This document shows, piece after piece, positions 32,777 through 49,119 of a stretch of 64,000 nucleotides of DNA (positions within the stretch are counted from its first letter, which is position 1; each line of letters begins with the position of its first letter). The notes beneath the pieces are model-generated. The model saw only the letters and a program-made list of their open reading frames with translations, ran no database searches and was not told where the DNA came from. Where the stretch lies: NCBI GenBank assembly GCA_017304475.1, contig JAFKKV010000030.1:1-64000 (forward strand). The letters are read 5' to 3'. The DNA is from Hyphomicrobiales bacterium (GTDB lineage Bacteria; Pseudomonadota; Alphaproteobacteria; Rhizobiales; Phreatobacteraceae). The position numbers and the translations under genes were made by a program.

Positions 32777-32866
32777 CGCGCCGGTCCCTGCCGTGCGGCT
32801 CGCGTCGCGCGGCGATGGTTCGTGCCGTCTCCGACGGCCGCTCAGGCTTTTTCAGGATATGTCACC

Positions 32867-33274
32867 GTGAACACGTTCAAACCCACGCGCGCCCTTGCGG
32901 CGGCGCTCATCGGCCTTGCCATGATCGGCTCGGCCAGACCGGCCCTCGCCGATGTCAAGGACTACGAATTCCAGCTCGTCGAAACGACAATGCGAACCGG
33001 GCCGAATACGGTCATCGCGGTCCGATTGATCAACAAGGCGACCGGCCGTCCCGTCCCGGATGCGGTAATCTTCGCGACCCGCCTCGATATGACGCCCGAT
33101 GGCATGCAGGAGATGGCGACCCCGGTGACGCCGGTGCCCGGTGGGGAGCCGGGAACCTATCGATTCAGGGCCAATGTCGGCATGGCTGGCGAGTGGCTGC
33201 TGTCGCTCGGCGCCAAGGTCCAGGGCGAGACCGGCACCGTCGAGAGCCGGCTGATCATTCGAGCCCGGCGATGA
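32867..33274 (+). CDS. FixH-family (YtkA-like) protein
   Basis: 135 residues from GTG 32867. A signal peptide ends near ARPALADVKDY. The mature part is a beta-sandwich domain with IAVRLINKATGRPVPDAVI and a closing GTVESRLII, as in the FixH/YtkA family found beside copper efflux genes. It may act as a periplasmic copper carrier or chaperone. The stop overlaps the CusB start (ATGA). Confidence 0.75.
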   Translation: MNTFKPTRALAAALIGLAMIGSARPALADVKDYEFQLVETTMRTGPNTVIAVRLINKATGRPVPDAVIFATRLDMTPDGMQEMATPVTPVPGGEPGTYRFRANVGMAGEWLLSLGAKVQGETGTVESRLIIRARR

Positions 33275-34698
33275 GCCGCCGCCTCTGGGCCGTTGCCGCC
33301 TTCGCCGCCTTCGGGGTGGCGGGGGCCGGCGGGTTCGTGGCCCGCCTGCCGGAGCCGCGGCTGGCGCGAACCCTCATCAGCGTGATCAGGCCCGCGCTGG
33401 CACAGTCCGACAGGGCCGTGATCTATTATCAGGATCCCGACGGTCGGCCGTTTTATTCGCTGTCACCGAAGAAGACGGCGGACGGTCGAGATTTCAGGGC
33501 CGTGCGCGCGGGGCAGGATCTCAGTTTCGAACCGGTGGGCGGGATACCCGCAGCCGCGCCCATGCCGCCATCCGGGGGGGCGAGCAGACGGGTCCTCTAC
33601 TACCGCAATCCCATGGGTCTGCCCGACACTTCGCCGGCGCCGAAGAAGGATTCGATGGGGATGGACTACGTCCCCGTCTACGAGGGCGATGACGGGGACG
33701 GCGGGGCGATCAGGCTCACGCCGGGACGAATCCAGCGCACCGGCGTCAGGACCGAACCGGTGGGGCTGCGGGTCGTCCGGACGGTCATCCGCGCGCCGGG
33801 AGCAATCCAGCTCGATGAACGCCGGATCGCCGTGATCTCGTTGCGTGCGGAGGGATGGATCCAGAAGGTCGCGGATGTGACGACCGGCACCCGGGTGCGC
33901 AAGGGCCAGCCGCTGATCGAGGTCTACAGCCCGGCGATCTCGGCCGCGGCGGCGGACTATGCCGCCCAGATGCAGAACCCAAGCGAGCTCCTGCCGACGC
34001 CGAATGCCGGACGCGGTTCGCGCCAGCGATTGATGAATCTCGATGTTCCCGAGCCCGTCATCGCGACGATCGAGCGGACGCGCGCCGCGCCCCTCGTCAT
34101 CGATTGGTCGGCGCCACGCGACGGCATCGTGCTCGAACGCAATGCCGTCGAGGGAACGCGGGTCCAGCCTGGCGATGTCCTGTTCCGGCTGGCCGACGTC
34201 TCGGTCGTCTGGACGCTGATCGATGTCGCCGAGCGCGATTTCGCCAGCCTTGTCGTCGGCCAGCCGGTCGCGGTCCGGACCCGGGCTCATCCTGGACGGG
34301 TTTTCGGGGGTCGGATCGGCGTCATCTATCCGCAGATCAACCGGGAGACCCGCACTGTCCGCGTGCGGATCGAGCTGCCGAACACCGATACCGCCTTGCT
34401 GCCGGAGATGTATGTCGACGCCGAGGTCGATATCGGCAGCCAGCAACCGGTTCCGGCCGTGCCGGAAAGCGCGGTGATCGACAGCGGCAGCCGCCAGGTC
34501 GTCTTCGTCGACAAGGGGGAGGGGAGGTTCGAACCACGTGACGTGAAGCTCGGCGCGCGTGGCGGCGGCTATGTCGAGATCCGCGAGGGCGTCAGGCTCG
34601 ACGAGCCCGTGGTCGTCGCGGCCAATTTTCTCATCGATGCGGAGAGCAATCTCCGGGCAGCCCTCCGAAGCTTCACTGAGGCGGGAGCCCGGCCATGA
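33271..34698 (+). CDS. cusB: CusB-like RND efflux adaptor with two heavy-metal-binding motifs
   Basis: 475 residues, anchored by one N-terminal segment. Two HMBD-type modules are visible: IYYQDPDGRPFYSLSPKK near residue 50, a degenerate copy, and LYYRNPMGLPDTSPAPKKD near 108 with MGMDYVPVY after it. Then comes a standard adaptor fold (barrel-sandwich GWIQKVADVTTGTRVRKGQPL, alpha-hairpin, beta-barrel). The periplasmic adaptor links CusA to an outer-membrane TolC channel and hands over Cu(I)/Ag(I). The stop overlaps the cusA start. Confidence 0.88.
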   Translation: MSRRLWAVAAFAAFGVAGAGGFVARLPEPRLARTLISVIRPALAQSDRAVIYYQDPDGRPFYSLSPKKTADGRDFRAVRAGQDLSFEPVGGIPAAAPMPPSGGASRRVLYYRNPMGLPDTSPAPKKDSMGMDYVPVYEGDDGDGGAIRLTPGRIQRTGVRTEPVGLRVVRTVIRAPGAIQLDERRIAVISLRAEGWIQKVADVTTGTRVRKGQPLIEVYSPAISAAAADYAAQMQNPSELLPTPNAGRGSRQRLMNLDVPEPVIATIERTRAAPLVIDWSAPRDGIVLERNAVEGTRVQPGDVLFRLADVSVVWTLIDVAERDFASLVVGQPVAVRTRAHPGRVFGGRIGVIYPQINRETRTVRVRIELPNTDTALLPEMYVDAEVDIGSQQPVPAVPESAVIDSGSRQVVFVDKGEGRFEPRDVKLGARGGGYVEIREGVRLDEPVVVAANFLIDAESNLRAALRSFTEAGARP

Positions 34699-37600
34699 TC
34701 GCCCGCATCATCGCCTGGTCGGCGCGCAATCTGATGCTGGTCATGATCGGCACCGCCTTCGCCGTCGCCGGCGGCCTCTACGCCCTGCGTCACCTGCCGC
34801 TCGACGCCATTCCCGATCTCTCCGACACCCAGGTGATCGTCTACACCGAATATCCGGGCCAGGCTCCGCAAGTGGTCGAGGATCAGGTGACCTATCCCCT
34901 GACCACGGCCATGCTCACCGTGCCGCGCTCCAAGGTGGTGCGCGGCTTCTCGTTCTTCGGCGTCTCCTTCGTCTATGTCATCTTCGAGGACGGCACCGAC
35001 ATCTATTGGGCGCGTGCGCGTGTGCTCGAGTTTCTCAATGGGGCGGCGGCGCGGCTGCCCGCCGGTGTCGCGCCGACGCTCGGGCCGGACGCGACCGGCG
35101 TCGGCTGGGTCTATCAATATGCGCTGACCTCTGGAGAGTTGAACCTCGCCGAAACGCGAAGCATCCAGGACTGGTCCCTGCGGTTCGGGCTCGCCAGGGC
35201 CGAAGGGGTCGCCGAGGTCGCCAGCGTCGGCGGTTTCGTCCGGCAATACAATGTGGTGCTCGATCCGCAGCGCCTGCGCGACCTGGGCATCCCCATGCAA
35301 AGGGTGCGCGAGGCCATTCGCGCCAGCAATGCGGATGTCGGCGGGCGGACCGTCGAACTCTCCGAGTTCGAATATGTGGTAAGGGGCCGAGGCTACCTGA
35401 AGGGCGTCGACGATCTCGGCGAGATCGTGCTCAAGACGGCCAACGGCACGCCGGTGCGCTTGCACGACGTGGCACGGGTGGAGCTCGGCCCGGACGAGCG
35501 CCGGGGCCTCACCGAACTGAACGGCGAGGGCGAGGTCGCGGGCGGCATCGTGCTGCAGCGCTTCGGCGCCAACGCGCTCGACGTCATCAACAATGTGAAG
35601 CGGCGCCTCGGCGAGCTTGCGGGCAGCCTGCCGGCATCGCTTGCGATCGTGCCGGTCTATGACCGCTCGACACTGATCGATGCCGCCATCCAGACGCTCA
35701 AGACCACGCTGTTCGAGGAAAGCGTGGTGGTCGCGCTGGTCTGCATCCTCTTCCTCATGCATGTCCGCAGCGCGCTGGTGGCCATCCTCATGCTGCCGGT
35801 CGGTGTTCTCATGGCCTTCGGCGCGATGAAGCTGCTCGGTCTCGGCTCCAACATCATGAGCCTCGGCGGCATCGCCATCGCCATCGGCGCCATGGTCGAT
35901 GCGGCGATCGTCATGATCGAGAACGCCCACAAGCATCTGGAGCGCGCCGATCCAGCAAACGCGCGCGTTGATGTTCTGATCAAGGCGGCGTCCGAGGTCG
36001 GCCCGGCATTGTTCTTCTCGCTCCTGGTGATCACGGTGTCCTTCGTGCCGATCTTCACGCTGGAGGCACAGGAGGGGCGGCTGTTCAGCCCGCTCGCCTT
36101 CACCAAGACCTTCGCCATGGCGGCCGCGGCGATTCTCTCGATCACCTTGGTGCCGGCGCTGATGATCATTTTCGTGCGCGGCAAGGTCATGCCGGAACGC
36201 CGCAACCCGATTAATCGCGTGCTGATCTGGCTGTACCGCCCGCTGATCAAGGGCGTGCTCAGGGCCAAGACGCTGGTGATCGTGCTGTCGCTCGCCGTGC
36301 TGGCGGTGACCGCCTGGCCGGCCCGCCAGCTCGGCTCGGAGTTCATGCCCAATCTCAACGAGGGGACATTGCTCTACATGCCGACGACGCTGCCCGGCCT
36401 GTCGATCACCAAGGCCGCGGAACTGCTGCAGACCCAGGACAGGATCATCCGGTCGTTTCCTGAAGTGGCATCGGTCTATGGCAAGGTGGGGCGGGCGTCG
36501 ACCGCCACCGATCCCGCGCCCACCGAGATGTTCGAGACCATCATCAACCTCAAGCCGAAGCCGGAATGGCGGCCGGGCATGACCCTGGACGGCCTGATCG
36601 CGGAGATGGACCGGTCGTTGCAATTCCCCGGTGTCTCCAATGTCTGGACGATGCCGATCAAGGCGCGCATCGACATGCTCTCAACCGGCATCCGCACGCC
36701 GGTCGGCGTCAAGGTCATCGGCAATGATCTCCATGAGATCGAAGGAGTGGCGCGCCAGATCGAGCGGGTCCTGAAGAGCGTGCCCGGCACGTCCTCGGCC
36801 TATGCCGAGCGTGTCATCGGTGGCTACTACCTGGACATCGTCCCCGACCGTGCCTCGCTTGCCCGCTACGGCATGATGGTCCAGGACGTCCAGGACGTGG
36901 TCGCGACCGCGCTCGGCGGACAGACCGTGACCACCACCGTCGAGGGCCGTCAACGCTACGGGGTGAATGTCCGCTACCCCCGGGATCTGCGGAGTGATCC
37001 CCAGGCGATCGCACGCGACGTGCTGGTGCCCATGCCGGCAGGTGGGGCGGTGCCGCTCGGCGAGGTCGCCGGCATATCCCTGTCGCGCGGCCCGACCACG
37101 ATCCGCACCGAGAACGGCCAATTGGCTGTTTATGTCTATGTCGATATCCGCGACCGTGATCTCGGCGGCTATGTCGCCGACGCGCAGGCGGCGGTGAAAG
37201 AGGGCGTCCGGTTTCCGCCTGGCGCCTATGTCATCTGGAGCGGCCAATACGAATATCTGGCGCGTGCGACGGCCCGTCTTCAGGTGGTCGTGCCGGTCAC
37301 GCTGATGATCATCTTCCTGCTGCTCTACCTGAACTTCCGCTCGCTCACCGAAACGCTGATCGTCATGCTGTCCTTGCCCTTCGCGGTGGTCGGCGGCGTC
37401 TGGCTGATGTGGGCGCTGGGATTCAATCTGTCAGTCGCGGTCATCGTCGGCTTCATCGCGCTCGCCGGCGTCGCGGCCGAGACCGGCGTCGTCATGCTGA
37501 TCTATCTCGATCACGCACTGGCGGAGGTAAGGGCGAAGCGCCTGGCCGAAGGGCGCAGCTTCACAAAGGCTGACCTGCACGAGGCCATCATGCTGGGGGC

Positions 37601-37811
37601 CGTGGAGCGGCTGCGTCCCAAGATGATGACGGTCGTCGCCATCATCGCCGGCCTGCTGCCGATCATGTGGAGCACCGGCGCCGGTTCGGAGGTCATGCAA
37701 CGGATCGCCGTGCCGATGATCGGCGGCATGATCTCGTCGACCGTCCTGACGCTCATGGTCATTCCGGCCATCTACGGCCTGATCAAGGGATGGCGGTTGC
37801 GCGAGGCTTGA
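34695..37811 (+). CDS. cusA: CusA/CzcA-family heavy-metal RND efflux pump
   Basis: 1038 residues, full length for an HME-RND transporter. Twelve membrane segments in two repeats; the proton-relay motif is in GAMVDAAIVMIENAHKHLE near residue 400. The N-terminal Asp-Pro-rich loops, periplasmic Met residues (for example VWTMPIKARIDML) and the C-terminal GGMISSTVLTLMVIPAIYGL block fit the CusA/CzcA group. The neighbouring FixH, HMBD-bearing CusB and copper genes favour Cu(I)/Ag(I) over Zn/Co/Cd. The inner-membrane pump exports ions to the outside through TolC. Confidence 0.92.
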   Translation: MIARIIAWSARNLMLVMIGTAFAVAGGLYALRHLPLDAIPDLSDTQVIVYTEYPGQAPQVVEDQVTYPLTTAMLTVPRSKVVRGFSFFGVSFVYVIFEDGTDIYWARARVLEFLNGAAARLPAGVAPTLGPDATGVGWVYQYALTSGELNLAETRSIQDWSLRFGLARAEGVAEVASVGGFVRQYNVVLDPQRLRDLGIPMQRVREAIRASNADVGGRTVELSEFEYVVRGRGYLKGVDDLGEIVLKTANGTPVRLHDVARVELGPDERRGLTELNGEGEVAGGIVLQRFGANALDVINNVKRRLGELAGSLPASLAIVPVYDRSTLIDAAIQTLKTTLFEESVVVALVCILFLMHVRSALVAILMLPVGVLMAFGAMKLLGLGSNIMSLGGIAIAIGAMVDAAIVMIENAHKHLERADPANARVDVLIKAASEVGPALFFSLLVITVSFVPIFTLEAQEGRLFSPLAFTKTFAMAAAAILSITLVPALMIIFVRGKVMPERRNPINRVLIWLYRPLIKGVLRAKTLVIVLSLAVLAVTAWPARQLGSEFMPNLNEGTLLYMPTTLPGLSITKAAELLQTQDRIIRSFPEVASVYGKVGRASTATDPAPTEMFETIINLKPKPEWRPGMTLDGLIAEMDRSLQFPGVSNVWTMPIKARIDMLSTGIRTPVGVKVIGNDLHEIEGVARQIERVLKSVPGTSSAYAERVIGGYYLDIVPDRASLARYGMMVQDVQDVVATALGGQTVTTTVEGRQRYGVNVRYPRDLRSDPQAIARDVLVPMPAGGAVPLGEVAGISLSRGPTTIRTENGQLAVYVYVDIRDRDLGGYVADAQAAVKEGVRFPPGAYVIWSGQYEYLARATARLQVVVPVTLMIIFLLLYLNFRSLTETLIVMLSLPFAVVGGVWLMWALGFNLSVAVIVGFIALAGVAAETGVVMLIYLDHALAEVRAKRLAEGRSFTKADLHEAIMLGAVERLRPKMMTVVAIIAGLLPIMWSTGAGSEVMQRIAVPMIGGMISSTVLTLMVIPAIYGLIKGWRLREA

Positions 37812-38041
37812 AAGCCGAAGTTCTCGGACATGGATAGTCCGGTGGGGGGACAGCGACCGGATCGCGATAAGCGGTCGAATGTCGATCGCTTTCGTTGATT
37901 TTTCAGCGCTCTTGTTTGACTTTGGTCGCTTTCGTTCCGTTTTTGGCAGGTTTTTTTCTGGCGCTAAACGGATGGAACACTTGCCCTGCCTCTCATGCGA
38001 AAGGCTTATCGGGCAAGATCGAGCCGCGAGGACCCTGGGGC

Positions 38042-38617
38042 CTACAGATCAGAGGTGCGCGCCTCGACTCGTTTCGCAAGTTCAACGAGGTTTTGACCCT
38101 TGAGGATTGCGATGAAGTCGGGCGCTGAAACTCGGGTCTTGCTCAGATTTCGCCGAGAATGCGCGAGGGAGCCGATCATCAAGTCAGGGGTCTCATCGAA
38201 AAGGCCGCAGAGGAAATCGTCCGGGGTCATTCTTCGGAGGCCAAATTTTTTCAGCTCACTTTCTGGAAAGTGCCGCGAATTCCACGTCAGAATGAGCGAT
38301 GCCCTGGCGGCAATTGCCGCCGCGACAACATGACGATCGCTCCGATCGGGCAGAATTACCTCGGGAATGTGCTCCTCGTATCCGACAATCATTGCCGTTG
38401 GGAGCGCATCATTCATCAATCGCCGGGTGATCTGCAAACGCTCTATCGGAACGGCAGGCGCATTGGCCGCCAGGTTTCGGATCCATTCTTCTTGGATGGC
38501 GTCTGTCCAACGCGCCTCAACAAGGCGGTCTACCGCAGCCTGGACAACGACATTTCTGAGATGAAAAGGATAGAGAATGCAGGCGTCGAAGACGGCGATC
38601 GACGCCTCAAACGCCAT
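38042..38617 (-). CDS. PIN-domain toxin of a type II toxin-antitoxin pair
   Basis: 191 residues. A PIN fold is indicated by VFDACILYPF near residue 9 (first acidic), the central LPDRSDRHVVAAAIAARASLI block with two more acidic residues, and LTWNSRHFP. PIN toxins are Mg-dependent ribonucleases. The start overlaps the antitoxin stop by 11 bases, the usual coupling in such pairs. It is longer than the roughly 130-residue VapC type, matching the PIN proteins paired with excisionase-like antitoxins. Confidence 0.8.
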   Translation of the reverse strand: MAFEASIAVFDACILYPFHLRNVVVQAAVDRLVEARWTDAIQEEWIRNLAANAPAVPIERLQITRRLMNDALPTAMIVGYEEHIPEVILPDRSDRHVVAAAIAARASLILTWNSRHFPESELKKFGLRRMTPDDFLCGLFDETPDLMIGSLAHSRRNLSKTRVSAPDFIAILKGQNLVELAKRVEARTSDL

Positions 38618-39053
38618 GGTGCCGCCTGAGGTCCTCGGCGTCGTCGGCGAGTGCCTCCATTGCCGCCCGCTGGGCGTCAATCCGAGACTTCAGCGCCAAA
38701 ACCTCCTTTAGCTTCGTGCGGCGGTGCTTGCCGACATATCGGAATGGCAGGTCCCCGACGTCCATCCGATGTACGATCAACGGTCGGGAGATTCCCAAGA
38801 TCTCTGCCGCGTCGTTCGGACTGAGTTCCTGATCCTCGGCAAGGACCGCGACACGTTCTCCTTGAAGGAGATGGCCGAGTGCAATCTCGAGCAGCGCCGC
38901 GGCCTTCGGCGGCAGCCTGACGACTTGATCCTCGCCCGACTTGCGGCGCACCCGGACCTCGACCTGGTCGCCCTTGCGCAGCTTGTCGAAGGCTTTGGCC
39001 GCCTTGCGGTCCTGGTCCGAGAGTTCGACATATTGCAGCACATGGGTGGTCAT
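38607..39053 (-). CDS. Excisionase-type HTH antitoxin
   Basis: 148 residues; ATG 39053 has AAGGAG. The C-terminal half has a HTH_17/excisionase motif (LSPNDAAEILGISRPLIVHRM) and the N-terminal half a short beta-rich dimer region. It probably neutralises the adjacent PIN toxin and represses their shared promoter at 39076-39104. Confidence 0.78.
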   Translation of the reverse strand: MTTHVLQYVELSDQDRKAAKAFDKLRKGDQVEVRVRRKSGEDQVVRLPPKAAALLEIALGHLLQGERVAVLAEDQELSPNDAAEILGISRPLIVHRMDVGDLPFRYVGKHRRTKLKEVLALKSRIDAQRAAMEALADDAEDLRRHHGV

Positions 39054-39075
39054 GGTCGGCTCCTTTCCAAGCAGG

Positions 39076-39104
39076 AGTATAGGGCGCGTTGTATCTAACT
39101 GCAA
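39076..39104 (-). promoter_or_regulatory. Sigma70-type promoter of the toxin-antitoxin operon
   Basis: On the minus strand TTGCAG and TATACT are separated by exactly 17 bases, and the -10 ends 22 bases before the antitoxin ATG. Confidence 0.65.
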
Positions 39105-39162
39105 TATCTGAAACGCCGTGGGTCCGCCGTCGCTGCCGAAGCGTCGGATTGCGGCCAGGCGG

Positions 39163-42039
39163 TTACTCGCTTTCCTCGGCTATCGCATCCCTCGCGTGAG
39201 TAGTTTGAGCCCGACGAAGCGAGCGGATTGAGGATGGCAGATAGCCTTTTGGGTAAATATCAACGCGCGATGCGCGCCGGCGACGATGTTTTCCAGCCGT
39301 ATAAGAATCCATATCACGTTCTCGCGAGAGCAGGAATTTCAGAAAACTTACGTCCCTCACGTGGCATGTTTGATAAAGGCTCAGCAACACTAAGTGCTCA
39401 GCAAGGCCGGCCTCTTTGACGCTCCGTCCGACATCTTCTCTATAGTTGCTGATGCGCTTTATGGCGTGCTCGGCCAGATTGTTGTTCCACGATACGCCGT
39501 CATGCTGCAGGAACGTGAATAGGCGCTCGCGATTCCGGAGTAGGCGCTCTTGCAAGGCTTTTGATGCTTCAGATTCGCAAGTGAGCTCCGCGAGCGCGTT
39601 GAAAAAGGCGCTCACGGCTTTGGTATGAGTCTGTAGATAGCGCCGCTTGAGGCTGTGCTCATCTATAGTGACTACGATTGCTCGCAGAAGAGCTCCGAAT
39701 GGCGTGGTGATAGATTGAAGCTCCCGATCAAATGGATTGTCGAGAATCGCTCGGTTCATGTCGCGTATGAGATGGATAAGGCATCTCTGATGCAAGCAAG
39801 GAAGTCCATCGTACGCTGAATAGAAATCAGAAACCAGAACGCCTTTGAAATATTTGAGAAGTTTCCGCAGAAAATGCCCCTCACGCGAGCGGCGGAAGAT
39901 GTAAACTGCGGCTGAGGTGTTGGCGAAAACCCAGACATAGCCCTTTCCATCTTTCAATTTCACTTCAGTTTCATCAACATGCAAGACTGGCCCCGCGATT
40001 AGTCTCGCGAGGATCCTACGATAAGTTCTATGGTATTTGTGGACGAGGATATGCCGAAAATCGAAGAATTCCCACCAATTCACCCGAATCCCGAAGGTTT
40101 CATAGAACAGTTCCGCAAGAGATTTCACTCCGAGCCTATGAGTGATGTGCTGGTAAGCAAACCAGCTCATGAAGCCATGAAAGTACCTTGTTAGGCGCTC
40201 ATAGCGCTCAGGCGTGAAACATCGTTCGCAGCATTCGCACCGATAGGCGACGGCCCTGAACTCTATTACCTTCCGGCGGATCGCGCCGGGAGTAATGATG
40301 AGATCAAAAGCGCGCTTGCGCCTCGTCTGCACACTCTTTGGCCGCCGCTTCGGGTCGATGGGCACGATACGCTTGCTCTTGCAGGCAGGGCAGTGCGTAG
40401 CCGTGATTACCACTCGATGTGTAACCCGCAAGTCGCGGTTTTGCCATCGACGGAGTTTCGTATTGCTGCCTCGCTCGTGCCGGCCGGCTTTCGATCGCAC
40501 AAACACGTGGCGTCGTTGGTAGTCGAAATAGGCCCGCTTGTTCACGAATTCGAAGTCGGCATCCTGGAACTTCGACCACGTGGCTGAACGCGCCAACCTG
40601 TCGAGTTGCGCCACAGACGCCACGTTTGCCGGAGCTCCGGGTTTGCCGTCGGCGTTGTAATTCGATGCGTCGGTCAGGAAATCACAGAGTCTGTGCAGCG
40701 CTTCACAGTCCTCCAGATTGTATTGGATCAGCCGTGTTTTCCATGACGCGTCGCCAGTATTTTCCCAGTTCTTGCGCCAGACGACGCTCTCGACACCGGA
40801 GGCGTCCGGCTCCGTCCAGTGGACGCCGATGTAACCCGCTATCTCCTTGAGCCCGTTCGAGTATGTAGGAAAGTAGAAATGCGGGTAGATGATCGTGAGG
40901 ACGTTGGTGAGTGCGGATAGAATTGCGTCGATGCGCTTCTTGAGCCGGGCTTGGCGCCGCATGCGCGCGATGAATGTTCGTTCATAATTGCCGTAACAGT
41001 AAAGACGTGGTGCCTCATACTGCGCCACGATTTCGAGAAAACGAGCGAAAATTTCGCTTTCTCCTTTTTCATCATCCGCCCAGAACGAGTAACGTGCGAC
41101 GTTCTCATCTTCGCAAACAACGAGTCCGATTAGATATATGAAGCCATTTTCGGGGTCACCCTCCATATCAACATAGATGCGCACTGTTGCCGCAGGAACT
41201 GTGGGTGAGCCCAGCACATAGATTGTCTTGTCGCGAATGGCCAGCGCGTGCAACGCATGGTCTCGCCGGGTGGGCGGAGCGTCAGCGCGCTTGCCGTGTC
41301 GTCGAGGCCGAAAAGTGTGCGCGAGCTGGGTCAATGAAAGAATGCCCTTGCGGGCGTATCGTTTGATCGTCCTTTCGCCGATGCCACGCAGGAGGCTCAG
41401 ATTGTCCTCGCGGATGGCTTGGTCACGGCAACGTTCGCGGAACGCGCAAATGCGGCAATGGTCATTAAGTACTAGCTTCGGCGGGGCGTCGGCGCGCTGC
41501 AAGCGCTCGGCATCTCGGAGGAAAGCTTGCGCCGCCGTCAGGGCCGATCCGAACCGAATGCTCGCCCTCGCGCTGTCGCGCCCGAGATAAACGGTTGCGC
41601 CACTAGGAAGTGTGTCCTGAATCCTCGCCAAAAGAACCGCGTATGTGGCAAGTCGTCGGCGATCGAGAGCGCGAACCCGGGACGCAGTGCAAATTAGCAC
41701 CGGTTCATACTGGAAGTGTCCGAGTGCCGAAGGACCATCGATCTTGCGAAGGGCATCGAAGTGGACGGCATAGCGATCGTCTTCCAAAGTAGCGCCGAGG
41801 ATCAATGCAGCTCCTTTGCGGAGGACGGCGACGGACAAGTTAAGATCAGTCGCTACGTCGGTTTCGCCGTGGGCGCGCCGAATCTTTTCGGTGGCCTTAA
41901 GCTGCAGGCTGGCCCGCTGCTCGTCCAACAGCTTCTCGTACCCCGATTGGGCTCCTTGCTCATCATGCAGATGAAGATACGCCTTTAAGCGGCAGTGCTG
42001 CAGCGCATCTATGATATCGTCAGTGATCCTGGAGGACAT
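39163..42039 (-). CDS. Cas4-like RecB nuclease - DEDD exonuclease - zinc ribbon - IS66-type DDE transposase fusion
   Basis: 958 residues from ATG 42039 (AAGGGG six bases upstream). Four modules. Residues 1-215: TM0106/Cas4-like RecB nuclease with an Fe-S ligand set C16, C195, C198 and C204; acidic D95 and E112 remain but the usual Lys two residues after E112 is absent. Residues 285-455: RNase_H_2/YprB-like exonuclease with DME (D291, E293) and YNLED (Y440, D444). Residues 550-607: zinc ribbon CPAC...CECCERC. Residues 650-915: IS66-type DDE domain with HVDETEVKL (D689), VSDFYSAYD (D738) and NNLAEHAIK (E857). All sit in one open frame without a frameshift. Base composition is visibly A/T-richer than the flanks. 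No TnpA/TnpB partners of IS66 are present. Function unknown. Confidence 0.88.
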   Translation of the reverse strand: MSSRITDDIIDALQHCRLKAYLHLHDEQGAQSGYEKLLDEQRASLQLKATEKIRRAHGETDVATDLNLSVAVLRKGAALILGATLEDDRYAVHFDALRKIDGPSALGHFQYEPVLICTASRVRALDRRRLATYAVLLARIQDTLPSGATVYLGRDSARASIRFGSALTAAQAFLRDAERLQRADAPPKLVLNDHCRICAFRERCRDQAIREDNLSLLRGIGERTIKRYARKGILSLTQLAHTFRPRRHGKRADAPPTRRDHALHALAIRDKTIYVLGSPTVPAATVRIYVDMEGDPENGFIYLIGLVVCEDENVARYSFWADDEKGESEIFARFLEIVAQYEAPRLYCYGNYERTFIARMRRQARLKKRIDAILSALTNVLTIIYPHFYFPTYSNGLKEIAGYIGVHWTEPDASGVESVVWRKNWENTGDASWKTRLIQYNLEDCEALHRLCDFLTDASNYNADGKPGAPANVASVAQLDRLARSATWSKFQDADFEFVNKRAYFDYQRRHVFVRSKAGRHERGSNTKLRRWQNRDLRVTHRVVITATHCPACKSKRIVPIDPKRRPKSVQTRRKRAFDLIITPGAIRRKVIEFRAVAYRCECCERCFTPERYERLTRYFHGFMSWFAYQHITHRLGVKSLAELFYETFGIRVNWWEFFDFRHILVHKYHRTYRRILARLIAGPVLHVDETEVKLKDGKGYVWVFANTSAAVYIFRRSREGHFLRKLLKYFKGVLVSDFYSAYDGLPCLHQRCLIHLIRDMNRAILDNPFDRELQSITTPFGALLRAIVVTIDEHSLKRRYLQTHTKAVSAFFNALAELTCESEASKALQERLLRNRERLFTFLQHDGVSWNNNLAEHAIKRISNYREDVGRSVKEAGLAEHLVLLSLYQTCHVRDVSFLKFLLSRERDMDSYTAGKHRRRRASRVDIYPKGYLPSSIRSLRRAQTTHARDAIAEESE

Positions 42040-42310
42040 CGCTACCCCTTGGTCACCAAAGGGGGGCTTGTCGCACACGACTATCGCTTTATTCAGGCGA
42101 ATGGGCCGCAGAAGTTGCCCAGGCTGGATGGGAGCCGTCGACGAAGCCAGCACAAAGGGCGGTTCGACCGTTCATGCGATAGGTCCACCGAATCTGCGGT
42201 TGAGAAGGAGAAGCCATGGCCTGATGAAGCTCTAGGAATTGATGTGCCAGGTGCTCAGTTCGGCAATACGCGGTGAAGTCAGGGCATTTCTGGCGCAATG
42301 ACCCGAAGCA

Positions 42311-42325
42311 GATCTTGATAAGATC
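42311..42325. repeat. Hyphenated palindrome GATCTT-GAT-AAGATC
   Basis: Perfect 6+3+6 dyad, 22 bases from the tRNA 3' fragment and 272 bases upstream of the fusion-gene start. Could be an operator, an element end or a small terminator. Confidence 0.5.
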
Positions 42326-42346
42326 CTTCCCCATCCCTCGATTTTT

Positions 42347-42406
42347 TGGCGGGCCCTGCAGGGCTCGAACCTGCAGCCGGGCCGTTATGAGCGGCCGGCC
42401 CTAACC
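42347..42406 (-). pseudogene. 3' part of a CAU-anticodon tRNA (Ile2/Met-like), likely attachment-site scar
   Basis: Read on the minus strand: D-loop GGTTA and D-stem 3' side GGGC, anticodon stem GGCCG/CGGCC (5 perfect pairs), loop CTCATAA with anticodon CAT, variable CGGCT, T-stem GCAGG/CCTGC, T-loop TTCGAGC, acceptor 3' strand AGGGCCC, G discriminator, encoded CCA. The 5' acceptor and D-stem 5' side are missing; the histidine-kinase stop codon abuts instead. A 3' half ending exactly at CCA is typical of a duplicated att site for a tyrosine integrase. Confidence 0.75.
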
Positions 42407-42407
42407 T

Positions 42408-43796
42408 TCAGCAGCCGGAGCTCGCCGCGCGCCGCCTTGGCACTTCGAGACTACTGTGAATCTCGCTCGCAGCCGGGGTGACGCTCGGCAGCGTTACCGT
42501 GACCGAGAGCCCTCCCACCGGCCGATCCGACAACAGGACGTCGCCGCCATGGGCGCGAATGATCGATCGGGCGACGGTGAGGCCGAGGCCGACGCCGCCG
42601 GTCTCCTTGTTGCGGGAATATTCGAGGCGGTGGAAGGGCGCGAAGACGATCTCCCTGTCCTTGTCGTCGATCCCCGGGCCTTGGTCGGCCACCACGACTT
42701 TCGCGGTCGCGCCGTCGCTCGACAGGTCGATATCCGCCCGGTCTCCGTATTTGATGGCATTCTCGATGATATTGGTCAGGGCACGCTTGAGAGCGAGTTT
42801 TCGCCCGAGAATGACGACGGCACGCGGCGCCGAAAAGCTGGTGGGCTTGCCCATTTCGTCGAAATCGGTCGCGATCGCCTCGACCAGCGAGACCAGGTCG
42901 ACGGGGCGCATCGGCTCGTCCGACCGGTCGCCCCTGAGGAAGGCCAGGGCGCCTTCAATCATCGTTTCCATCTCGCCGATATCGGCCTCGATATCGGCTC
43001 GGGTTTCCGCGTCAGCGACGTCCTCGGCGCGAAAGCGCAGGCGGGTCAGCGGTGATTTCAGGTCGTGCGAAATCGCCGCCAGCGTCTGGCTCCGGTCGTC
43101 GATGAGCTTCTTGATGCGGACCTGCATGACATTGAACGCCGCGGCCAGCTGCCTGACCTCGGTCGGCCCCGCCTCGGCGACCTTGACCACTTCGGCGCCC
43201 GTCGAAAACTGCAGCGCGGCGTCGGCGAAGCGTTTCAGCGGCCGGGTCAGCCAACCCAGCAGGAGAATGGCGACCAGCACGAGACCGCCGGCCATGAGCG
43301 AGGTCGAATAGACCGTGCCGTGGCTCGATATCGGCAGGTCGCGCACCGAGACGACGCTGACATTGACCCAACTCTGATCCGGGAGTTGCATGGAAATCAT
43401 CGCGATATGCTCGTCATCGCGCAGCTTGGCACTGGTTCCGATCACGAGATTGCCGCCATTGAGTTCAGGCGCGACGGTCATCAGCCGTCCGCGCAGCCCG
43501 TCCAGGCGCGCGACCTCGCTGCCGCCGGGAACGGCATGCTCGGCGAGGCTCCAGTGAACGTCGAACGGGCCGCCGGCCAGCGCATGCGCGGTCTGTTCGC
43601 GTTCGGCGGGGCGGGCCTGCATGACCGTGCGCATGATCGATACCAGGCGCTCGGCCAGGCGCGCGTCGTTGTTGGAGGTCAGTTCCGCCTGAAGCGCCGC
43701 CTGATAGGTCCATAGGCTTGCGACGTGCAGGGCACCGATCGCGACCAGCAAGACGAGGATCGTTCGTCCGGGGATCGAATTGAGCAGATTTTTCAC
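42408..43796 (-). CDS. Two-component sensor histidine kinase
   Basis: 462 residues. Two membrane segments (residues 12-34 and about 164-184) flank a periplasmic sensor, then HAMP, HisKA with the phosphorylated His in AAISHDLKSPLTRLR near 243, and HATPase_c with N, G1, F and G2 boxes (NIIENAIKYG, DQGPGIDD, FHRLEYS, GGVGLGLTV). Its start overlaps the response-regulator stop. By position it most likely senses periplasmic copper and phosphorylates the adjacent regulator. The last codons run directly into the tRNA scar, so its C-terminus may have been modified by integration. Confidence 0.88.
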   Translation of the reverse strand: MKNLLNSIPGRTILVLLVAIGALHVASLWTYQAALQAELTSNNDARLAERLVSIMRTVMQARPAEREQTAHALAGGPFDVHWSLAEHAVPGGSEVARLDGLRGRLMTVAPELNGGNLVIGTSAKLRDDEHIAMISMQLPDQSWVNVSVVSVRDLPISSHGTVYSTSLMAGGLVLVAILLLGWLTRPLKRFADAALQFSTGAEVVKVAEAGPTEVRQLAAAFNVMQVRIKKLIDDRSQTLAAISHDLKSPLTRLRFRAEDVADAETRADIEADIGEMETMIEGALAFLRGDRSDEPMRPVDLVSLVEAIATDFDEMGKPTSFSAPRAVVILGRKLALKRALTNIIENAIKYGDRADIDLSSDGATAKVVVADQGPGIDDKDREIVFAPFHRLEYSRNKETGGVGLGLTVARSIIRAHGGDVLLSDRPVGGLSVTVTLPSVTPAASEIHSSLEVPRRRAASSGC

Positions 43797-44563
43797 TCGC
43801 GTCTCACCGAACGGCTGAACATGTAGCCGACGCCGCGGACGGTCTTGATGATCGAATGGGCGCCGCCCGCCTCGTCGATCTTTTTCCGCAGGCGGCTGAT
43901 CTGAACATCGATGCTGCGGTCGAAGCCGGTCGTCGTTCTGTTGCGCGCAGCGTCCAGCAGATGCTCGCGCGTCAGCACGCGTTGCGGCGCCTCGACCAGG
44001 GTCAGCAGCAGGTCATAGTCGCCGCTGGTCAGTTCGATGATGACGCCCTCGGGATTGATGAGGTCGCGCCGGAGGGTATCCAGCGTCCAGCCTTCGAAGG
44101 CATATTTTCGCGACCGCGCGCCCGGTTCGCTTTCGCGCGGGCCGAAGCTCCGGCGCAGAACCGCATTGATGCGGGCCAGCAATTCCCGCGGATTGAACGG
44201 TTTGGCGAGATAGTCGTCCGCGCCGATTTCCAATCCGACGATCCGGTCGGTCTCGTCGCCCTTGGCGGTCAGCATGACCACCGGGGTCTGCGATTGGGCC
44301 CGGATTTCGCGGCACAGATCAAAGCCGCTGATGCCGGGCAGCATGACATCCAGGATGACGAGGTCGACGGTGGTATGCGCGACCACCTCCCGCATCTCGT
44401 AGCCGTCACGCGCGGCGCTGACCTTGAAGCCGTTCGCACGCAGAAATTTCGCGACCAATTGGCGGATCTGGCCGTCGTCGTCGACGAGCAGGATGTGGAC
44501 GCCGCTGCCGGGTTCCGAGGCGGCGCCGGGGGCGATGCCGTTATTCGTTTGCGAGGAGATCAT
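43793..44563 (-). CDS. OmpR-family response regulator
   Basis: 256 residues. The receiver domain has DDD near residue 28, the phospho-acceptor Asp in VILDVMLPG near 72, and the conserved Lys in LAKPFNPRELL near 122. A winged helix follows with ELTSGDYDLLLTLVEAP and RSIDVQISRLRKKI. It belongs to the CusR/CopR-like group by context. A box TTTCC-N5-ATTACAA upstream of its gene is repeated upstream of the copper operon start, suggesting control of both. Confidence 0.88.
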   Translation of the reverse strand: MISSQTNNGIAPGAASEPGSGVHILLVDDDGQIRQLVAKFLRANGFKVSAARDGYEMREVVAHTTVDLVILDVMLPGISGFDLCREIRAQSQTPVVMLTAKGDETDRIVGLEIGADDYLAKPFNPRELLARINAVLRRSFGPRESEPGARSRKYAFEGWTLDTLRRDLINPEGVIIELTSGDYDLLLTLVEAPQRVLTREHLLDAARNRTTTGFDRSIDVQISRLRKKIDEAGGAHSIIKTVRGVGYMFSRSVRRE

Positions 44564-44628
44564 CGGCGACGAACTCAGTGATCCGAGGTTTCATCGCAAA
44601 TTTCTAGGTTGTGTAGATCTCAGCGGCG

Positions 44629-44645
44629 TTTCCGGCTCATTACAA
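44629..44645 (-). promoter_or_regulatory. Candidate copper-response box, copy 1
   Basis: TTTCC-GGCTC-ATTACAA on the plus strand (TTGTAAT-N5-GGAAA when read on the transcribed side), 66-82 bases before the response-regulator start. The same element is at 49433-49449. Confidence 0.55.
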
Positions 44646-44724
44646 ATTGTTTCGGCGGGGCCCTGCGGTTTCGGGCCACGCGATGCCGCATGCGTCGCCC
44701 ATCGATGCCCGGCGGAACGATCAT

Positions 44725-45201
44725 TCAGCCGTTGATGGGAGCCGATCCGTGAAAGCGCATGAAGACGGACGGTCCGCCGGTGCCGAAAGCCAAGACGTCA
44801 TAGGTGTCGGGCTCCACGCCTGGAACCTCCATGCCCGGCGATCCCACGGGCATTCCGGGCACCGCCAGGCCGCGAATGGCCGGCCGTTCGGCGAGGAGGC
44901 GGATGAGCGAGGCGGCCGGGACATGGCCTTCGAGGATGTAGCCCTCCACTTCGGCCGTGTGACAGGACCACAGCGCGGCAGGCACGCCGAGCCGGGCCTT
45001 CACGGCATTGATCCTGATTTCCTCGATAATTCTCGTCGGAAACCCGGCCGCCGCGATGTGATCGGCCCAGGCGCCGCAGCAGCCGCAGGACGGATCCTTG
45101 TGCATGACGACGACGGGCCTTTCGGCCGCCGAGCCCGTTCGGATTCCGGCACCGGCGACCAGCGGAAGGGCCGCGAGAAAAGAGCGGCGGGTGATCGTCA
45201 T
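44725..45201 (-). CDS. DUF411 periplasmic metal-binding protein
   Basis: 158 residues; the start at 45201 gives a Tat-like signal TITRRSFLAALPL and a GGAAA site. The mature part has the DUF411 metal site HKDPSCGCCGAWADH and SCHTAEVEGYILEGHVPA. Members bind copper or related metals in the periplasm in Cu-resistance clusters. The long 3' gap separates it from the response regulator; it follows CusF at 125 bases. Confidence 0.82.
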   Translation of the reverse strand: MTITRRSFLAALPLVAGAGIRTGSAAERPVVVMHKDPSCGCCGAWADHIAAAGFPTRIIEEIRINAVKARLGVPAALWSCHTAEVEGYILEGHVPAASLIRLLAERPAIRGLAVPGMPVGSPGMEVPGVEPDTYDVLAFGTGGPSVFMRFHGSAPING

Positions 45202-45326
45202 CGTGCCGTTTCCGTCTTTCGGCGTCATTTCGCTATTCTCCAATGCCGGCCGGCGGCCGGCAATGCCGAAATGGGGCATTGGGGCCGCCGTGGGATTGTT
45301 GCCGCCTGCGCGGCGAAGGACCAGAT

Positions 45327-45620
45327 TTATCGGGCGCGCTGCATGCGGGTGATCGTGATCGCGCCATTGACGCGTTCGGCATCAAAGCGGACGCGATCAC
45401 CTTCACGCACCTGCTGGAGCATGGCGGGGTCGGCGACCCGGAACACCATGGTCATGCCGTCCATTTCCAGGTTCGCGATGGGGCCATGCTTCAGCGTGAT
45501 CCGGCCGCGCTCGGCCTCGATCTTGACGACCTCGCCGGTCACCGACTGGGCTGTGGCGGTGGCGACATGGCCCATCGTCGCGAGGCCGGCGGCGAGGGCG
45601 AGAGCTTTGATCATGGACAT
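45327..45620 (-). CDS. cusF: CusF-like copper/silver-binding protein
   Basis: 97 residues with a signal peptide (ALALAAGLATMGHVATATAQ). The OB-fold copper site of CusF is seen in GRITLKHGPIANLEMDGMTMVFRV, with His and two Met ligands and a nearby aromatic. It carries Cu(I)/Ag(I) in the periplasm to a CusB adaptor; the cusB gene is on the other side of the insertion at 33271. Confidence 0.82.
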   Translation of the reverse strand: MSMIKALALAAGLATMGHVATATAQSVTGEVVKIEAERGRITLKHGPIANLEMDGMTMVFRVADPAMLQQVREGDRVRFDAERVNGAITITRMQRAR

Positions 45621-45646
45621 GGAGAAACCTCTTCTTGCGGGGTGGT

Positions 45647-46105
45647 TCAGCGAACGGTGATCCGGCCATGCATGCCGGCCTGGTAGTGACCCGGGATCAG
45701 GCAGGCGAATTCGAACGTGCCGCTATTGGTGAAGCGCCAGATGATTTCGCCCGATTTCGTGGGCTCGACCTTCACGGCGTTCGGATCGGCATGTTCCATG
45801 TCCGGATTGCGTTCCATCGCGGCCTTGTGGCGCTGATTGCCCTCGAACGTGTCGATGACCATTTCGTGGTCGAGCGCCCCGCCGTTCTTCACCACGAAGC
45901 GGACCGTATCGCCCCGGTTGATGGTGATGTCGGCCGGCTCGAACAGCATCCGCCCGTCGCCTTCCAGCATGCGCACCTCGACGGTGCGCGTGACGCTGGC
46001 GCGATGACCCTCTTCGCCGGCGGGAGATGACGGGCCGTGGGCCATCGACGCGCCGGTCAGGGCGGCGATTGTCGCAAAGGCCAGCAGAGCTGATGTCTTC
46101 GACAT
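45647..46105 (-). CDS. Periplasmic cupredoxin-domain protein
   Basis: 152 residues; the 46105 start has a GAGGACA site and signal peptide. A type-1 copper centre is complete: His in ALDHEMV and Cys, His and Met in FACLIPGHYQAGMHG. It is an azurin/plastocyanin-like electron carrier or copper store of the resistance operon. It follows the multicopper oxidase by 25 bases. Confidence 0.85.
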   Translation of the reverse strand: MSKTSALLAFATIAALTGASMAHGPSSPAGEEGHRASVTRTVEVRMLEGDGRMLFEPADITINRGDTVRFVVKNGGALDHEMVIDTFEGNQRHKAAMERNPDMEHADPNAVKVEPTKSGEIIWRFTNSGTFEFACLIPGHYQAGMHGRITVR

Positions 46106-46130
46106 GATCTGTCCTCGTCTTGGTCTGATG

Positions 46131-47537
46131 TCAGTGGTTGGAATGGCTGCCGCGGGCACGGCGGGCCGCGCGGTCGAGCACGCGTGCCGCCGGCGCGGGG
46201 CCGGGCGGGGTTGCGGCGCGGGTGGGTTGGGCGAGCGGCGGCCCTTTCCACTCATAGGCCACGGTGCCGGGCGGATGCTGGTACCAGCCGGGATCCCGGT
46301 AGTCGCCGGCGGCCAGGCCCTCGCGCACCTTCACGACCGTGAACATGCCGCCCATCTCGACCGGCCCGAACGGCCCGTCGCCGGTCATCATCGGCAAGGT
46401 ATTGGCCGGAAGGGGCATTTCCATCGCGCCCATCTCGCCCATGCCGGCGCCACCCATCGGCATGAAACCCGGCACCAGTCCGCGGATGGCCCGGGACACC
46501 TGCCGCTGATCCACGCCGATCATGGTGCGCGTGTCATGGCCCATGGGGCCCATCGTGTGGTGCGACTTGTGGCAGTGAAACGCCCAGTCGCCCTCGTGCA
46601 CGGCATGGAATTCATAGGCGCGCATGGCGCCGACGGGCACGTCGACGGTCACCTCCGGCCAGCGGGCCTCGGGACGGACCCAGCCGCCATCCGTGCAGGT
46701 CACCTCGAAATCGTAACCGTGCATGTGGATCGGATGATTGGTCATGCTGAGATTGCCGATCCTGATCCGGACGCGGTCGTTCTTGGCCACCACCAGGGGA
46801 TCGAGTCCCGGCCAGGTGCGGCTGTTCATGCACCAGATGTTGAAATCGGTCATGGTCGAGACCTTCGGCACATAGGTCCCCGGGTCGATGTCGAAGGTAT
46901 TGAGCAGGAAGACGAAATCGCGGTCGACGCGGTGCAGGGCGGGGTCGCGCGGATGGACGACGAAGAAGCCCATCATGCCCATGGCCATCTGCACCATCTC
47001 GTCGGAATGCGAGTGGTACATGAAGGTGCCGCTTTTGCGGAGCTGGAACTCGTAGACGAAGGTCTTGCCGGGCGGGATATGCGGCTGGGTCAGTCCGCCG
47101 ACGCCGTCCATGCCCGAGGGCAGGATCTGGCCGTGCCAATGCACCGCCGTGCTCTCCGGCAGGCGATTGGTCACGAAGATGCGAAGCTTGTCGCCCTCCA
47201 CCGCCTCGATCGTCGGGCCGGGGCTCTGGCCGTTATAGCCCCACAGATGGGCGACCATGCCAGGCGATATCTCGCGCACCACCGGCTCGGCGACGAGGTG
47301 GAACTCTTTCCATTCGCCGTTCATGCGCGCGGGCAAGGTCCAGCCGTTCAGCGTGACGACCGGCTGGTAGTCCGGTCCGCTGGAGGGCGGTGCGAGGGGA
47401 GCCTGGGTGTTCGCCTTGGTCATGGTCGGCGCCTCCGGCAGGCTTGCCGTCTGCGCTCGTCCACTGACCTGGGATGCGCCGACGAGGGCGAGGCCGGCGC
47501 CGGCGGTGGCAAATAGTCCACGTCGCGATACGGACAT
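46131..47537 (-). CDS. Multicopper oxidase, CopA/CueO-like
   Basis: 468 residues with a Tat signal (SVSRRGLFATAGAGLAL). The four copper motifs are in order: HWHG near residue 142, YHSHSDE near 184, HPIHMHG near 280 and HCHKSHH near 336. The Met-rich stretch near 370-400 (FMPMGGAGMGEMGAMEMP) is typical of Cu(I)-oxidising CopA. It oxidises toxic Cu(I) to Cu(II) in the periplasm. The middle gene of the copper operon. The Arg/His-rich C-terminal tail is unusual. Confidence 0.88.
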   Translation of the reverse strand: MSVSRRGLFATAGAGLALVGASQVSGRAQTASLPEAPTMTKANTQAPLAPPSSGPDYQPVVTLNGWTLPARMNGEWKEFHLVAEPVVREISPGMVAHLWGYNGQSPGPTIEAVEGDKLRIFVTNRLPESTAVHWHGQILPSGMDGVGGLTQPHIPPGKTFVYEFQLRKSGTFMYHSHSDEMVQMAMGMMGFFVVHPRDPALHRVDRDFVFLLNTFDIDPGTYVPKVSTMTDFNIWCMNSRTWPGLDPLVVAKNDRVRIRIGNLSMTNHPIHMHGYDFEVTCTDGGWVRPEARWPEVTVDVPVGAMRAYEFHAVHEGDWAFHCHKSHHTMGPMGHDTRTMIGVDQRQVSRAIRGLVPGFMPMGGAGMGEMGAMEMPLPANTLPMMTGDGPFGPVEMGGMFTVVKVREGLAAGDYRDPGWYQHPPGTVAYEWKGPPLAQPTRAATPPGPAPAARVLDRAARRARGSHSNH

Positions 47538-47553
47538 GACGTCTTCCTCGTTG

Positions 47554-49119
47554 CTAATGCGCGGCCGCGCCGGTTTCGGCGCCGGCAACTGCGGTGGTGG
47601 GGGTGTCCGATGAGCCGCCGCTGGGCGCTCCGCCGATGACCACGAATTGCAGGTCGGTCTTGGCGATCCAGAAGTCTCGGCGGGCTTCGATGGCCGCGGC
47701 ATTGGCGGCGATGCGGGCCCGTGCCTCGGTGAGAAGCGAGAACACGTCGACCATCATGCCGTTGTACCGGAGCTGGCTTTCATCCGCGATGATCTGGCGC
47801 AGCGGCAGGATCTGCGACTGGTAATGGCGGGCAAAGTCGAAACCGCCGCGATAACGCTGGTAAGCCTCGCGCGCCTCGGAACGCACATTGACGCCGCGTT
47901 CGACCAAGCGATTGACCGAGCGCAGATAGGTTTCGCGCGCCTCGCGGAGACGGCTTTCGCCCAGGTCCAGGGGCATCTGGACTTCCAGGGACAGGCCGCT
48001 GATGCGGGTCCGTTCGAATTCGGTCTGGTGGTTCTCGACGAGCTGCCCGCCCTGAAGGCTGTAGGAGCGTTCGGTGCGCGTGGACCGTTCGTTGTTCAGC
48101 GCGCCCTGGAGCTCCAGGACATTCAGAAAGCGCGACCATTGGGTCAGGTCGAGCTGGCGGGCGACGCCGTCGACCTCCAGGCGCGCGATCCTGAGATCGA
48201 GCCGCTTCTCCAGCGCCTCCCGTTCGATCGCGTCGCGGGACACGGGGCGAGGCGGCAAGGCCGGCAATTGGGCCGGGATTTTCAGCGCGGTTATATTGTC
48301 CCAGAGACCGAGTGCCCTGATCAGGCGTTCGCGGTCAGCCTGGTTCTGAAGCCGTGCGCGGGCGAGCTGGGCTGCCACATCGGCGTAGAATACGTGCTCG
48401 CGCGCCTGGTCCAGCCGATTGACCGCACCGGTTTCGCCGAGACGCTTGAATAGCTCGGAAGCCGTCCGCGCCGCGGTATTGGCCTGGGTGAGGAAATTGA
48501 CGAGCTGGCTGGAGGCGACGACACGGTAATAGGCCCGGCGCGTATCGCCGGCGAGGCGCAGCGTCTCCTCGGCCGCCCGCAACTGCGCCTGGCTGAACCG
48601 CACCTCGGCGACGGCCCGTCTTTGCGGCAGGGTCGCGAGCCCGAGAACGTTGACGAGCAACTGGCGCTCGATCTCGATCGCGCCGGTGCTGGCGAGCCGC
48701 GTCAGCGAGAGCGTCGGGCTCGGCGGCAAGCTGGCCTGGACGAACAGCGCTTCGGAAATTCCAAGATCGTTATAGGCGGCCTGCAGGCCGCGATTGTTCA
48801 TGAGGGCGATCTGGACCGCCCTGTCGACGCTGAGCGGGGATCGCAGCAAGGCCGTGACGCGCGCCTTGACCCTGTCGCTGTCGGCCGGCTCCCGGATGCG
48901 CCCGACGTCCTGACGCAGTTCGCGGGCCGCGATGTCGCGGGTGACACCGAGGCCTCCGTCGGGGCTATAGCTGGCGCAGCCGCCGAGCGCCGTGGCGGCG
49001 CCGACCAAGATGGCGCCGAGCCGAACCGGGTGGAGCAGTCTTTGGGCGGTGTTCGGCCGGGCGGCGGCGCGGGTCGGATGGTCGCAGGTGGATGATGTCA
49101 TGATCGTCATCGCCCTCAC
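47554..49119 (-). CDS. TolC-family outer-membrane efflux lipoprotein
   Basis: 521 residues. The first start (49119) overlaps the small lipoprotein stop; internal ATG 49110 and 49101 are alternatives. A lipobox LGGC near residue 48 and the TolC repeat region (ALMNNRGLQAAYNDLGISEALFVQASLPPSPTLSL, split between two copies of long helices) identify the OMF family. It probably forms the outer-membrane exit for the CusBA pump encoded at 33-38 kb. Confidence 0.82.
   Translation of the reverse strand: MRAMTIMTSSTCDHPTRAAARPNTAQRLLHPVRLGAILVGAATALGGCASYSPDGGLGVTRDIAARELRQDVGRIREPADSDRVKARVTALLRSPLSVDRAVQIALMNNRGLQAAYNDLGISEALFVQASLPPSPTLSLTRLASTGAIEIERQLLVNVLGLATLPQRRAVAEVRFSQAQLRAAEETLRLAGDTRRAYYRVVASSQLVNFLTQANTAARTASELFKRLGETGAVNRLDQAREHVFYADVAAQLARARLQNQADRERLIRALGLWDNITALKIPAQLPALPPRPVSRDAIEREALEKRLDLRIARLEVDGVARQLDLTQWSRFLNVLELQGALNNERSTRTERSYSLQGGQLVENHQTEFERTRISGLSLEVQMPLDLGESRLREARETYLRSVNRLVERGVNVRSEAREAYQRYRGGFDFARHYQSQILPLRQIIADESQLRYNGMMVDVFSLLTEARARIAANAAAIEARRDFWIAKTDLQFVVIGGAPSGGSSDTPTTAVAGAETGAAAH

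Follow-up and report, generated by a model that had tools for sequence, protein, structure and literature searches.

The 64,000-nucleotide stretch analysed here (hereafter 'the window'), from a contig of a Hyphomicrobiales bacterium, contains a gene that encodes, as one chain, the N-half of a TM0106-type nuclease and an IS66 TnpC-type transposase. Both halves of this fusion are monophyletic, one active site is lost and two are kept, and no partner gene is conserved beside it. The domains are already known; what is new is the way they are combined, together with the selective loss of one active site, and no published description of the fusion was found in the open-access literature searched. 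The gene and its parts are as follows:

39163 to 42039, minus strand: fusion gene, TM0106-type N-half plus IS66 TnpC-type C-half, 958 aa (frame call, Pfam, NCBIfam; same architecture at six other loci)
42045 to 42050, minus strand: Shine-Dalgarno-like AAGGGG, 5' of the fusion-gene ATG (read from the sequence)
41407 to 42039, minus strand: Cas4-fold Fe-S domain, residues 1-211, predicted catalytic site lost, cysteines C16, C195, C198 and C204 (structural match to 7mi4, motif loss; 25% mean pairwise identity)
41674 to 41709, minus strand: residues 111-122, YEPVLICTASRV, opposite the YEVxDTKL of canonical TM0106, with other residues in place of D-x-K (alignment with canonical TM0106)
41191 to 41406, minus strand: middle region between the Cas4-like and exonuclease domains, residues 212-283 (conserved GI...QL...R.R motif; 44% mean pairwise identity)
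40636 to 41190, minus strand: predicted DEDDy 3'-5' exonuclease domain, residues 284-468, with D291, E293, E353, Y440 and D444 (Pfam RNase_H_2, structural match, motifs)
40447 to 40635, minus strand: variable linker, residues 469-531 (22% mean pairwise identity over 457-545; low pLDDT)
40204 to 40446, minus strand: IS66-type zinc ribbon, residues 532-612, with C550, C553, C601 and C604 (NF033517 match, alignment)
39325 to 40203, minus strand: IS66-type DDE domain, residues 613-905, with D689, D738 and E857 (Pfam PF03050; triad)

The frame runs for 958 codons without interruption from an ATG at 42039, as the initial annotation had described. The NCBIfam model TIGR03491 (TM0106 RecB-like nuclease) matches residues 6-455 (E 8.5e-71, 239.3 bits against a cut-off of 97.45), while the IS66 model NF033517 matches residues 532-903 (E 1.3e-50) with 172.6 bits, just under its cut-off of 180, which three homologues of the window fusion exceed. 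Pfam matches are to RNase_H_2 at residues 288-455 (E 6.8e-27) and to DDE_Tnp_IS66 (PF03050) at residues 621-869 (E 1.3e-29, 104 bits against a cut-off of 23.1); a PDB sequence search with the protein returned no relevant match. The initial annotation had divided the chain into four segments, for which it had suggested the HMM search reported here. Since TIGR03491 covers both the Cas4-like and the exonuclease segments, and since the zinc ribbon is part of IS66 TnpC, they amount to two known modules, joined once, and not to four separate pieces. Structure prediction of the whole chain, also suggested at that stage, succeeded in part: the AlphaFold model is confident over residues 1-460, but the DDE half was of low confidence in two attempts (shallow alignments), and is assigned here from its Pfam and NCBIfam matches.

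The predicted structure of residues 1-211 in the AlphaFold model superimposes on the Cas4 of 7mi4 (Z 15.6, rmsd 3.6, 187 residues aligned), and the four predicted Fe-S cysteines are invariant in seven divergent homologues. At the level of sequence models, cas4 TIGR00372 reaches 16.3 bits, under its cut-off of 65. In an alignment of eight fusion N-halves with 16 canonical TM0106 proteins, the D-x-K motif is present in the canonical proteins and missing from all eight fusions (its positions in the window copy being L115 and C117), as are the glutamine beside it and an HE motif near the N-terminus; the intact D-x-K is a TM0106 feature as set by this comparison, the TIGR03491 model itself not requiring it. 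A live Cas4-type nuclease was rejected on the loss of D-x-K in every fusion, and the domain is predicted from these motifs to be catalytically dead, with a putative DNA-binding Fe-S domain remaining. The fold and cysteines of the Fe-S nuclease region first proposed thus hold, but its activity does not: with D-x-K lost and the DEDD and DDE sites kept, a reading as three live nucleases is wrong, and 'cleavage, end-trimming and strand transfer' in one chain was an over-reading. Residues 212-283, which follow this domain, look helix-hairpin-helix-like by eye and may form such a motif.

The two remaining active sites present a different picture. Family-B DNA polymerases provide structural matches to residues 284-468 of the AlphaFold model through their 3'-5' exonuclease domains (Z ~14), and none of the YprB-like exonuclease residues originally singled out (D291, E293, Y440, D444) varies among seven divergent homologues, position 353 being E or D (D in the proteobacterial genome G606). 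The IS66-type DDE triad is likewise complete, and invariant in all seven fusions having a C-half. The ribbon requires correction, as a 'Cys4-Cys4' arrangement had been proposed and just one Cys/His4 ribbon (C550, C/H553, C601, C604), of the type usual in IS66 TnpC, is conserved. Each chain is therefore predicted, from its sequence, to carry one 3'-5' exonuclease and one strand transferase. The DEDD and DDE domains are the best conserved of the fusion (mean pairwise identity 42% for each segment), while the Cas4-like part, at 25%, is the fastest-evolving folded segment. This last property, together with an IS66 half whose NCBIfam score approaches or exceeds the cut-off in most members, would suit an ordinary IS66-type element that has captured a nuclease gene, its N-half being inert baggage. 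Such an explanation is improbable, as the DEDD domain equals the DDE domain in conservation, its motifs are kept across phyla and the Fe-S cysteines are invariant, all of which indicates that the N-half is under selection; the terminal repeats and accessory genes of IS66 are, furthermore, lacking.

The two-module chain was found at seven loci in at least three phyla (Alphaproteobacteria, another proteobacterial class, Cyanobacteriota plasmids and Bacteroidia). Relative to the window copy, identity is 41% for the fusion of Acaryochloris plasmid pREC4, 32% for that of Calothrix plasmid p4, 30% for each of two further alphaproteobacterial genomes (G084 and G270), 32% by search alignment for G606, from the other proteobacterial class, where the frame runs off the contig, and 31% for a Bacteroidia MS495-74 contig (L002 3032-5674); in addition, Bradyrhizobium CB82 has a truncated N-half. 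Homologues consistently split into separate reading frames would have spoken for an artefact. Instead, the architecture recurs in one chain across phyla, and recurrence of the intact fusion at 30-41% identity rules out a sequencing error or joined genes, although the Bacteroidia copy does have a single in-frame stop (4613-4615), between the halves. In trees of the N-half and of the C-half the fusions form one clade each, with support of 100/100, the IS66-half clade sitting on a long stem. The deepest split is the same in both trees and separates the window, Acaryochloris and Bacteroidia copies from those of Calothrix, G084, G270 and G606, which points to one old fusion event followed by joint descent.

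This distribution is extremely sparse. Carriers number four among ~1,240 Pseudomonadota genomes searched, and no fusion was detected in 11 sampled genomes of the host genus, in the phage collection or in IMG/VR. TIGR03491 occurs in 16 of 249 genomes of the host order, two of these occurrences being the fusion; nearly all other frames measure 1,000-1,225 aa, and one plasmid-borne representative has a C-terminal helicase. A domesticated host factor for repair or replication, one of the three readings offered initially, would account for the lack of repeats and for the single copy, yet it fits poorly with so sporadic and context-free a pattern and with copies that are plasmid-borne, low in GC and decaying, and it too is considered very unlikely.

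In the host, the fusion gene is present as a single copy in a genome of 8.38 Mb. It lies in a low-GC island (GC 52-59%), and its GC3 of 0.615, compared to 0.82-0.87 for genes of the surrounding copper-resistance cluster, indicates a recent arrival. The cluster (window 32815-47702), which the island interrupts at 38.0-42.4 kb, contains CusB/CusA-like efflux, sensor kinase/response regulator and multicopper oxidase genes, as named by eye and from plasmid matches to cusA. The neighbours of the fusion gene within the island are:

38607 to 39104, minus strand: HTH protein, likely antitoxin of the PIN protein, outside the fusion family (Pfam HTH_17, E 4.5e-5)
38042 to 38680, minus strand: PIN_3-domain protein, likely toxin (Pfam PIN_3, E 3.3e-7)
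42347 to 42423, minus strand: tRNA-Met(CAT), bordering the low-GC island

The tRNA-Met(CAT) is possibly island-borne; its 3' end differs from the genome's other similar genes by at least 3 of 26 nt. It was rejected as an attachment site, its 3' end having no duplicate in the 64-kb window and the nearest genomic copies showing three mismatches. Six integrase queries revealed no integrase on ~124 kb of the 129-kb contig, and the frames neighbouring the fusion include neither TnpA nor TnpB, as had been observed from the outset.

The neighbourhood comparison of homologues that had been advised revealed no conserved partner gene at any locus. The neighbours differ everywhere, comprising plasmid genes, integrases, VapC, PIN or AbiE in no common orientation, so that no partner gene appears to be required. 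Toxin-antitoxin genes do adjoin the fusion at four loci (PIN/HTH in the window, VapC in Acaryochloris, PIN in G084 and AbiE in Bacteroidia), but a conserved toxin-antitoxin operon was ruled out, the adjoining modules varying in type and orientation. Tyrosine recombinases are located within ~5 kb of the fusion in Acaryochloris, Calothrix, G084, G270, CB82 and Aulosira.

Among the readings offered initially, a self-contained mobile element has the most direct support, although this is limited to cyanobacterial plasmids and does not derive from the window copy. Calothrix and Aulosira represent the sole closely related pair. The copy on Aulosira laxa plasmid5 (L032 4977-5236) is a MITE-like internal-deletion derivative that keeps both frame ends: its opening 25 nt, which begin 3 nt ahead of the ATG, are identical to the Calothrix copy and are joined to the last 236 nt (94%), which end 2 nt past the stop, the middle being deleted, and its flanks are unrelated to the Calothrix flanks on both sides. 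Furthermore, Calothrix NIES-4101 possesses the left flank (83%) without the fusion gene, with similarity ending 5 nt before the ATG, while on a Tolypothrix PCC 7910 plasmid (L089 171-197) the fusion is reduced to ~25 nt of its right end; this plasmid shares the Aulosira right flank, which lies ~1.3 kb away. With shared breakpoints located 3-5 nt ahead of the ATG and ~2 nt beyond the stop, the unit in cyanobacterial plasmids approximates the reading frame itself, its boundaries being near-exact from frame end to frame end in this one pair.

The absence of terminal inverted repeats, initially judged by eye, was confirmed: none exceeded shuffled controls at the fusion loci, whether searched without gaps to 3 kb or with gaps at the ends of the frame. 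Nor did direct repeats in the flanks exceed shuffles at any locus, although an IS66-type target duplication of 8 bp would be too short for detection without known ends; no solo ends occur in the host genome. Precise empty sites in close relatives, also sought, did not emerge with both flanks complete; within the host genus, the flanks are not collinear. The lack of repeats, the single copy per genome and the want of a complete empty site all count against self-movement.

Passive movement has to be weighed as well. The Aulosira site comes after an integrase. Related Nostocales plasmids (L091, L092, L093 and L094) carry varying cargo downstream of a conserved tyrosine recombinase, with NACHT NTPase, TPR or pentapeptide genes at the corresponding spot. 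Such plasmids swap gene modules beside an integrase, and the fusion may be moved as cargo, a real alternative to self-transposition. The main rival explanation is that the fusion might be a single-gene defence or plasmid-competition effector, borne by plasmids and islands and moved by plasmid recombination or nearby integrases and not by itself. Its Fe-S/Cas4-like and zinc domains would sense DNA ends that are foreign or damaged, for degradation by the DEDD and DDE sites. The gene context favours such an effector, with toxin-antitoxin genes at four loci, recombinases at six and the NACHT NTPase or other cargo behind the same integrase; sister TM0106-helicase proteins also partly match the defence helicase models MkoA and DpdJ. 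In S. elongatus, a loosely defined Cas4-like gene, not a demonstrated TIGR03491 member, lowers RSF1010 maintenance or transfer (PMC10653904), which is in keeping with a role of this kind. Yet the toxin-antitoxin genes differ in type and orientation, PADLOC returns weak Cas4 matches to the fusion and no fixed defence neighbour exists, while a full IS66 strand-transfer triad would be unusual in a defence nuclease. The defence reading, whose support comes from context only, is regarded as possible, though on the unlikely side.

The best explanation, held tentatively and at slightly short of an even chance, is a self-contained, low-copy mobile 'trimmer-transposase'. After a single, old fusion of a TM0106-type N-half to an IS66 TnpC transposase, this proposal holds, the dead Cas4-fold Fe-S domain and the zinc ribbon would hold DNA ends, the DEDDy domain would trim the 3' end of bound or excised DNA, and the DDE domain would join the 3'-OH to target DNA. 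The gene would then travel among plasmids and islands as a low-copy, single-gene unit roughly coextensive with its frame. Enzymatic activity, the order of these steps and movement by the protein of its own gene are inferred. The stricter version, a self-mobilising element that consists essentially of its own reading frame without inverted repeats and in which a single chain couples DEDDy trimming to IS66-type strand transfer with the dead Cas4-fold as end holder, is considered unlikely.

The fusion departs from each of the known systems nearest to it. TM0106 proteins (TIGR03491/COG2251), usually helicase-linked, likewise have a Cas4-fold Fe-S domain followed by a DEDD exonuclease, whereas the fusion has lost D-x-K, carries the IS66 transposase in place of the helicase and forms a separate clade (100/100). 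IS66 TnpC (NF033517/PF03050) resembles the C-half in zinc ribbon, DDE triad and overall length, but its N-terminal leader is replaced in the fusion by a 450-residue nuclease-like half, and the fusions form a separate clade on their long stem. TnpA/TnpB and terminal inverted repeats are also missing from the fusion, although TnpA/TnpB are not universal in the IS66 family. In Tn7-like TnsA-TnsB fusions a nuclease domain likewise precedes a DDE transposase, but TnsA cleaves DNA through a restriction-type site that is live, while its Cas4-like counterpart in the fusion is predicted to be dead; at the loci read, no TnsC-like gene came to notice.

A functional comparison can be drawn with the CRISPR trimmer-integrase Cas1-Cas2/DEDDh, whose integrase is fused to a DEDD exonuclease that shortens 3' ends ahead of their joining (PMC10284694). 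The likeness is one of working principle and not of kinship, as the integrase Cas1 is unrelated and its exonuclease is DEDDh as opposed to DEDDy; no CRISPR genes were seen next to the fusion gene. Exonuclease-integrase coupling in CRISPR adaptation decides which DNA gets inserted. If the proposed mechanism is true, this coupling would have been invented independently outside CRISPR, through the permanent union of a DDE transposase with a 3'-5' exonuclease and a Cas4-like domain that has lost its activity. It would then also call for explanation how an IS66-type enzyme can work with neither TnpA/TnpB nor inverted repeats.
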